Shown piece by piece: positions 54,194 through 55,459 of a stretch of DNA of 64,000 nucleotides. Positions within the stretch are counted from its first letter, which is position 1. Each line of letters opens with the position of its first letter. The translations under genes and the position numbers were made by a program. The notes under the pieces were generated by a model. The model did not search any database. It had not been told where the DNA came from and worked only from the letters and a program-made list of their open reading frames with translations. Source of the DNA: Lacunisphaera sp. (GTDB lineage Bacteria > Verrucomicrobiota > Verrucomicrobiia > Opitutales > Opitutaceae); the NCBI GenBank assembly GCA_029945445.1, contig JAQSCO010000051.1, positions 1 to 64,000 on the forward strand. The letters run 5' to 3'.

Positions 54194-55459
54194 ATGCCGA
54201 ACGCCGCGCAGCTTCTCGTCTCGATGTTGGACGAGCTCGGTCGTATCACGGACGAGCCGGGGCGGCTGACGCGGACATTTTTGTCGCCGGGCATGCAACG
54301 GGCCAACGAGCTCGTTGGCGACTGCCTGAAAGCCGCCGGCTTGAAAGTCCGGGTCGACTCCGTCGGCAACCTCATCGGCCGGCTTGAAGGCGCGCAGCGC
54401 GGCGCGAAAACTCTACTGCTCGGCTCGCACCTCGACACCGTACGCGATGCGGGCCGCTTCGACGGGCCGCTCGGCGTGCTGCTGCCGATCGTGGCGCTCG
54501 CGGAGTTGCAGCGCCGCGGCGTGCAGCTGCCGTTTGCCGTCGAGGTGCTGGGTTTTTCCGAGGAGGAGGGCGTCCGTTTCGGCAGCGCCTACCTCGGCAG
54601 CGAAGGCTATACCGGCCGGTTGAAGCCGGCCACGCTCAAGCTGCGTGATGCCGATGGCGTCAGCGTGCTGGAAGCACTGCAAAGGTGGAACGGCCTGACC
54701 TCAGGACGTTCAAAGCGCGCTGGGGTCAGCGCGCTCCACCTCAAGGCCACCCACGAGCCAAGTAACCTAATAGGTTACATTGAGGTGCACATCGAACAAG
54801 GGCCGGTGCTGGAGGCGAGGAAGCTCGCGGTCGGGGTGGTCTCAGCCATCGCGGGCCAGAGCCGCTTCAAACTGACTTGGACGGGCCAGGCCGGGCACGC
54901 GGGCACGACGCCGATGGCGCTGCGGCGCGATGCGCTGGCCGGCGCTGCGGAATTCATCACCGGAGTCGAGGCCATCGCCCGCCGCACGCCGGGCCTGGTC
55001 GCCACAGTCGGGGCACTTACGGTTTCACCCGGCGCGGCCAATGTGATTCCCGGCGCGGCCACTCACACGCTCGATGTCCGCCATGCGAAGGATTCCGTCC
55101 GGCGTTCCGCCCTGATGCGGATCGGACGGCTGGCCACGCAGATCGCCATCAAACGCGGGCTTGAGCGCCGCTGGCAGCGGACGCAGGAGAACGGCGCGGT
55201 GGATTGTTCAGTGAAACTGACCGCGCGGCTCGCCCGCAGTGTGCAGGCCGTGCAGGGCAAGGCTCTCTCGCTCGTCAGCGGCGCGGGTCACGACGGCGTG
55301 GTGATGTCCACGCTCACGCCCGTGGCGATGCTGTTCGTCCGCTGCCGGGACGGGCTGAGCCACCATCCCGATGAATACGCGTCGCCCAAGGACCTCGCGG
55401 TCGCGCTGCGGGTGATGGTTGATTTTCTGGAACGGCTGGCCGCGGAGTATCGCGGATGA
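54194..55459 (+). CDS. allC: allantoate amidohydrolase (M20-type)
   Basis: AllC removes ammonia and CO2 from allantoate, giving S-ureidoglycine. The 421-residue protein is a dinuclear metal amidase: GSHLDTVRDAGRFDGPLG (metal His and Asp), FSEEEGVRFG, HIEQGPVLE, and the dimerisation-domain GQAGHAGTTPM. The catalytic C-terminal GAGHDGVVMS and LSHHPDEY are present. Residues of about 164-183 are coded by an in-frame REPIN-like repeat (54685-54739) that adds roughly 11 residues to a surface loop. It is 4 bp after uraH and overlaps allB by four bases. Confidence 0.92.
   Translation: MPNAAQLLVSMLDELGRITDEPGRLTRTFLSPGMQRANELVGDCLKAAGLKVRVDSVGNLIGRLEGAQRGAKTLLLGSHLDTVRDAGRFDGPLGVLLPIVALAELQRRGVQLPFAVEVLGFSEEEGVRFGSAYLGSEGYTGRLKPATLKLRDADGVSVLEALQRWNGLTSGRSKRAGVSALHLKATHEPSNLIGYIEVHIEQGPVLEARKLAVGVVSAIAGQSRFKLTWTGQAGHAGTTPMALRRDALAGAAEFITGVEAIARRTPGLVATVGALTVSPGAANVIPGAATHTLDVRHAKDSVRRSALMRIGRLATQIAIKRGLERRWQRTQENGAVDCSVKLTARLARSVQAVQGKALSLVSGAGHDGVVMSTLTPVAMLFVRCRDGLSHHPDEYASPKDLAVALRVMVDFLERLAAEYRG
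54685..54739. repeat. REPIN-like element inside the allC coding sequence
   Basis: GTGG at 54685-54688 is followed by a stem AACGGCCTG/CAGGACGTT (one mismatch). Read from the other side on the minus strand, GTGG (54739-54736) is followed by a perfect nine-base stem AGCGCGCTG/CAGCGCGCT. This is the same inverted two-hairpin plan as the intergenic elements but with GTGG instead of GTAG. The reading frame stays open through it. Confidence 0.82.

Follow-up and report, generated by a model that had tools for sequence, protein, structure and literature searches.

The locus described here raises the question of how a mobile repeat came to lie in frame within the gene for allantoate amidohydrolase (allC), and whether the residues that it encodes serve the enzyme. 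The repeat is a REPIN, a non-autonomous unit of two REPs in inverted order, presumably mobilised by a RAYT transposase. The window, that is, the whole stretch of 64,000 nucleotides from Lacunisphaera sp. that was analysed, is located on contig C51 of a 66-contig genome assembly of 4.17 Mb. The features concerned are the following.

54194–55459, plus strand: allC, allantoate amidohydrolase, 421 amino acids; the reading frame runs uninterrupted through the REPIN.
54389–54409, plus strand: AllC loop 1 (residues 66–72), free of inserts here; other palindromic inserts are found there in relatives.
54685–54739, plus strand: REPIN of 55 bp (GTGG...CCAC), encoding AllC residues 164–182 (RWNGLTSGRSKRAGVSALH).
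54685–54711, plus strand: 5′ REP, with a GTGG tag and, in the predicted fold, an imperfect hairpin (GAACG-G-CCTG ACCT CAGG-A-CGTTC); exact core match at 54685–54702.
54707–54733, plus strand: codons of residues 172–180 (coordinates computed from the allC start), the sole AllC residues with pLDDT <50, entirely within the REPIN.
54714–54739, minus strand: 3′ REP, inverted, with a perfect 9-bp hairpin (AGCGCGCTG/CAGCGCGCT) and a CCAC tag.
54762–54778, plus strand: a further palindrome, GTAACCTAATAGGTTAC, covering the codons SNLIGY; this 17-mer is a repeat in its own right and leaves the length of AllC unchanged.

The element starts with GTGG at 54685 and closes with CCAC at 54739; in the predicted fold these two termini are paired, with the two hairpins lying between them. 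The single-stranded DNA of 54683–54742 folded with −23.8 kcal/mol, compared with −9.65 ± 1.94 kcal/mol for 200 shuffled sequences (z −7.29), none of which (0/200) reached this energy. At each end, a GTGG tag adjoins a short hairpin and lies outside it, as in GTRG-type REPs, except for the final G of the 5′ tag, which extends the first hairpin. The cores (54685–54702, plus strand; 54722–54739, minus strand) form an inverted pair with a short spacer. The element is also dispersed in multiple copies: a search of its own genome for other GTGG-type copies yielded 20 BLAST matches and 29 exact REP cores, compared with none for a reversed control pattern. When one mismatch was allowed, 41 cores spread over 23 loci were found; at two mismatches the count (70) was little above that of the control (45), so that only matches with zero or one mismatch were used. 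Of the 21 genomes compared within the genus, 14 (the present one included) contain exact cores, with a maximum of 99 copies. The 64-kb window holds no second copy of the REPIN at up to three mismatches. The preliminary description of this DNA, which had reported a complete two-hairpin element with GTGG ends that lies within the coding sequence of allantoate amidohydrolase and keeps its frame open, was thus correct.

Twenty-two of the 23 loci of the family in this genome were examined (the exception is a lone REP with one mismatch, at C57:457168), and an insertion was counted as in frame if one coding frame was found on both sides together with a spanning open frame. This was the case at eight of the 22 loci, seven of them with Pfam support (L018, where a Pfam family was absent, was dropped). 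The seven host genes encode AllC, an OGG-type glycosylase, a methylmalonyl-CoA mutase, an HI0933-like oxidoreductase, a 5′-nucleotidase-like protein, and two kinases; the mutase match (L014) starts just past the element, and its Pfam support is one-sided. Two loci remained uncounted, one whose two sides share their best frame but which has no spanning frame (L026) and one with the element upstream of a prepilin-like start (L019). In the two look-alike kinases, L015 and L017 (G000:C60), a REPIN separates the kinase domain from a stretch that resembles, by eye, a membrane anchor. In a relative (G018), in-frame insertions were much rarer: among 22 clusters in 20 regions, which are part of its 77 exact cores, there was one clear case (MnmA) and one probable case (amidase). 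Locus L247 was flagged automatically; L252 fell below the score and is called probable, with an Amidase match that starts at residue 95, near where the element ends. Seven of the nine in-frame cases are read in the VERAD-/VERLD-type frame, and allC and the amidase in the RWNGLT-/GWSGLT-type frame; in the remaining frame, the REP core has a TGA.

REPs that lie in frame within ORFs have been reported before, and the GTAG type is most numerous in Opitutus terrae (PMC3733652). According to the part of that paper covered here, the tags of O. terrae GTAG-20 are mostly GTGG, dimers and grouped REPs in ORFs encode 20–30 residues, and some intragenic REPs in repair genes were suggested to have altered protein activity; the link of RAYTs to REPs is also told there. 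The O. terrae elements resemble the present ones in coming from the same phylum and in consisting of tagged hairpins that occur singly or paired and keep the frame of their host ORFs, and several relatives in our comparison bear the name Opitutus; the likeness to GTAG-20 is one of description. The same part of the paper does not mention allC among the hosts of intragenic REPs, and it reports REPs at approximately the same site in two species only for recB, in two Xanthomonas species. In view of these reports and of the seven in-frame cases among 22 loci in the genome studied here, the earlier statement that a REP inside a gene is unusual is not supported for this lineage. Since in-frame intragenic REPs are already published, the allC copy is a further example and not a new kind; what is added to PMC3733652 is a cross-species view of one insertion site. 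In searches of the open-access literature, no paper pairing Opitutaceae with REPINs was found, PMC3733652 was the only paper found on intragenic REPINs or RAYTs in coding sequences, and among the matches listed it alone combines RAYT, in-frame and tRNA synthetase.

Other known systems are similar in part. The REPIN–RAYT systems of Pseudomonas and E. coli share the inverted REP pair, and relatives of the present species have REP-flanked transposases that match NF047646; they differ in that the copy in the window is intragenic and that a cognate RAYT was not found in its genome. Rickettsia palindromic elements (RPEs), according to the covered part of PMC3733652, are palindromes in frame within ORFs whose protein products are likely functional, and in-frame insertion into protein genes is likewise found for this REPIN family; they belong to another phylum, and the likeness is one of description. 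The RU repeats of enterobacteria, in the part of PMC2759123 covered, are also small mobile repeats inside genes, but are MITE-like units of 103–168 bp, again likened by description.

The host protein is identified as AllC by its family model and its fold. It scored 516.3 bits with NCBIfam model NF006775 (cut-off 479), and its AlphaFold model, which was built from a 50-sequence alignment (A1) and had a mean pLDDT of 93.5, matched the fold of 3n5f (Z 47.5) and of E. coli AllC (2imo; Z 45.3). The Pfam matches at E ≤0.01 were Peptidase_M20, M20_dimer and Peptidase_M28 only, with no protein-splicing domain; an intein-like insert, considered as a candidate, was ruled out by this absence and by the size of the insert (only 19 codons). 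In the model, the low-confidence segment (residues 172–180), which lies inside the element, sits between helix 158–165 and strand 192–200, and the inserted residues are predicted to be disordered. The HIEQGP block is a metal-site block in M20 enzymes. Loop 1 is a turn that joins strands 60–64 and 73–79.

The effect of the element on the length of the loop was measured in orthologues. The AllC set comprised 57 of 80 loci (54 from Opitutaceae and near relatives according to the tree, and three outgroup loci) and five further rows, with one titled Acidobacteria; the comparison is based on 58 rows from Opitutaceae and near relatives (the 54 loci plus the five rows, minus the truncated L090, which was excluded from the tree and the counts), and most of the Opitutaceae relatives are metagenome assemblies. 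Between V156 and G194, the AllC of the window (L032) has 37 residues, and those of L033 and L063 have 38. A palindrome in this loop (loop 2) is absent from 45 of the 58 rows, which have 27 residues (37 rows), 29 (six rows), 26 (one row) or 22 (one row). Orthologues without a repeat that share the longer loop, which would have spoken against an insertion, were not found, all 45 having at most 29 residues. The alignment confirmed that the lengthened loop lies between the DADGVSVLEAL and GYIEVHIEQGP blocks; the gain had been put at roughly 11 residues, and the measured net gain of 10 is close to this. Because native FNGGKFSLP-like residues are missing in the carriers, the 19 inserted codons yield a net gain of only 10, and the REPIN was apparently not just added but took the place of about nine native residues. 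There is no clean empty site among the AllC rows, since the insertion coincides with the loss of native residues.

The allC copy is not private to the window genome but common to it and four relatives (L033, L063, L064 and L080). The left border is identical in all four, and the right border in three, being one codon short in L064; L080 has a further insertion nested inside the element. Different REP subtypes are found at the identical left border of loop 2 in L079 and L105, and the right border of L079 also matches that of the window-type element. In L065 and L103, the loop-2 element has a decayed or mixed appearance. The neighbour of L033 on the tree, L062, has a native loop. On the AllC tree, which was built without loops 1 and 2, the nine carriers require seven changes, the seven clear carriers six, and the five closely similar ones four. 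A single group of the five closely similar carriers was weakly rejected (AU p 0.032); this test was run once the tree had been inspected, and the element itself defined the group. The scatter of carriers could also come from several insertions at a single site, or from an erroneous tree.

Within the core of the element, the allC genes of the window and of L033 differ by no synonymous and four non-synonymous substitutions, compared with 159.5 synonymous and 108.5 non-synonymous ones in the flanks (Fisher p 0.028; p 0.022 when pooled with L063–L064, with one synonymous and two non-synonymous substitutions). The test is based on few substitutions, and L080 was excluded from it because of its nested insert. 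The contrast between core and flanks becomes weaker when neighbouring codons are included: over 26–27 aligned codons, there were 4.2 synonymous and 8.8 non-synonymous substitutions between L032 and L033, and 3.0 and 2.0 between L033 and L063. Two of the four core differences of L033 constitute a coupled stem change (GCT...AGC vs GTT...AAC), in which each substitution alters a residue; both stem types are present in the window genome. At the DNA level, the element is identical at 56 of 60 positions between L032 and L033 and at 62 of 63 between L033 and L063, compared with about 77% and 81%, respectively, in the flanks. Since the core changes are mostly non-synonymous and the stems remain matched, the element appears to drift, or to be converted, as a DNA hairpin, unlike a protein under selection. 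These small numbers give no sign of selection at the protein level, which is consistent with neutrality.

Palindromes of other kinds occur in the same gene. The 17-mer GTAACCTAATAGGTTAC overlies the conserved LIGY codons and has ten exact copies in the window genome; among the 21 genomes of the genus, 11 contain exact copies (middle A or T), compared with none for the control. It occupies the same AllC codons, as AT-rich codons, in L068, L077, L084 and L089. Elsewhere, a 1.8-kb stretch (L182; G000:C14:4500–9500) contains six copies of the GTAACC palindrome, which lie partly in tandemly repeated DNA and are surrounded by small ORFs that look, by eye, like toxin–antitoxin genes. The allC of L078 (2001–3386) carries an insert in each loop; the two come from separate repeat families in the genome of L078, one found at 25 places and the other with 54 matches, many of them representing one place on both strands. 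The latter type has 71 matches in the genome of L079 and 26 in that of L080; it has none in that of L065. In loop 1, GTAG-type palindromes that are unlike one another are found in L065/L080, L078/L079, L068 and L118; in loop 2, L066, L074 and L085 have another palindrome (type B). For type B, and in loop 1 for L065/L080, L068 and L118, the inverted repeats alone were the basis of judgement. The string 'CHCEE' is a familiar repeat translation.

A likely transposase for the family was found in relatives. The RAYT at L199/L279 (G020:C316:2585–3064) is flanked by GTGG REPs and scored 77 bits with NF047646, below the cut-off of 80. A search with L199 provided 30 fetched loci, which are part of all matches. 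At all six fetched loci with at least 57% identity (query included), GTGG REPs with no more than one mismatch lay within about 75 bp of the matched stretch, on at least one side; among the remaining 24, only one was flanked, a partial match of 67 residues at 47%, giving a total of seven of 30 (query included). A scan of 30 Y1_Tnp loci, drawn from six genomes, found L199 alone to be flanked by GTGG REPs. The L199-like subgroup, with its flanking REPs, is likely the transposase of the GTGG REPs. In the window genome, none of the five Y1_Tnp loci scanned had a REP with one mismatch or less nearby (one two-mismatch REP near L027 was taken as chance), and the list of such cores shows none near a sixth place (C60:227020). 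A REP-flanked RAYT was not found there; the best homologue of L199 has 32% identity and is unflanked, so that the REPIN copies of this genome may be immobile at present.

In G018, a whole RAYT lies in frame within alaS, the sole alaS found in that genome (L206/L218; G018:C5:41820–45083, minus strand). The open frame encodes 1164 amino acids, and the insert has a perfect terminal inverted repeat of 14 bp. The fusion scored 75.6 bits with NF047646 (cut-off 80), 25.3 bits with Y1_Tnp (cut-off 23) and 773 bits with TIGR00344; it is known from one metagenome assembly. Other alaS rows shown have 0 to 60 extra residues at this position, and the longest exact inverted repeat in the rows tested was nine bases.

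The observed identity of the REPIN, its frame, shared borders and net length, the other genes hit, and the association with RAYTs in relatives are, in our judgement, very probably explained by a copy that landed in frame in allC and has been tolerated as a neutral passenger that evolves as DNA; the transposition event, the neutrality and the mode of spread are what we infer. A REPIN copy would have inserted into an ancestral allC, in the loop between the helix and the strand of the HIEQGP block, with the loss of about nine native codons. The insert would have survived because the loop accepts extra disordered residues, one frame of the REPIN (RWNGLTPG...GVNALHL) is free of stops, and the reading frame was maintained. 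Afterwards, the arms of the hairpins would have stayed matched while the residues drifted, and the loop allele would have spread among relatives by recombination, or have been gained and lost repeatedly. That a cognate RAYT was not found in the window genome counts against this explanation as far as present mobility there is concerned. The proposal of the preliminary description that the element could have created new protein sequence is true literally, since new residues are encoded; as to function, no test points to one for these residues, which are predicted to be disordered, and the few core changes are mostly non-synonymous.

The readings that compete with a tolerated passenger are less probable. 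That an ordinary variable loop contains an inverted repeat by chance, a reading for which no supporting point was found, is ruled out for practical purposes by the multi-copy family with its zero exact control matches, the stability of the fold (z −7.29), and a loop longer than in all 45 non-carrier rows. Recruitment of the inserted residues to serve AllC, in dimer contact, stability or substrate access, would agree with an enzyme that looks intact by NCBIfam score and fold and with the retention of the insert at about the same borders in the window gene and four relatives; we consider it improbable, given the pLDDT below 50 at residues 172–180, the mostly non-synonymous core differences, the native loop of the close relative L062, and the extra insertion within the element of L080. 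Scarcely more probable is that the hairpin is kept for a role of DNA or mRNA in allC (binding of gyrase or another protein, or pausing or processing of RNA). The greater similarity of the element than of its flanks and the pairing preserved by the coupled stem change are in line with such a role, but recent exchange or gene conversion gives the same pattern, both stem types exist in the window genome, and 45 of 58 AllC rows do without a loop-2 palindrome.

A further alternative concerns only the history of the element and is compatible with a tolerated passenger: recurrent independent insertion of REPINs at one allC site, as opposed to a single insertion spread by recombination. The other REP subtypes of L079 and L105, at the same left border and elsewhere on the AllC tree, the six changes required by the seven clear carriers, and the unlike palindromes at a single position in loop 1 make recurrence a possibility to be taken seriously, yet we doubt it. 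The element is closely similar and the same native residues are lost in L032, L033, L063, L064 and L080, which favours a common origin, and the matching right border of L079 fits transfer as well as repeated insertion.

More broadly, we tentatively suggest that REPINs and RAYTs of Opitutaceae repeatedly land in tolerant loops of housekeeping proteins without splicing, that such loops act as archives of insertions whose alleles are exchanged, and that alaS–RAYT is, in one relative, a transposase-bearing AlaRS fusion. At least three different palindromes in loop 2 and at least four in loop 1 of AllC could be read as such an archive, two and one of which, respectively, were shown to be multi-copy. 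The comparison provides a view across many species of small mobile DNA becoming protein sequence, a question raised by the RPEs and the REPs of O. terrae. With loops that carry different inserts or none, AllC offers a ready natural experiment on loop tolerance, and the RAYT subgroup tied to GTGG REPs is a candidate for their likely transposase. The alaS fusion, if true, would mean that an essential enzyme tolerates a whole transposase domain.
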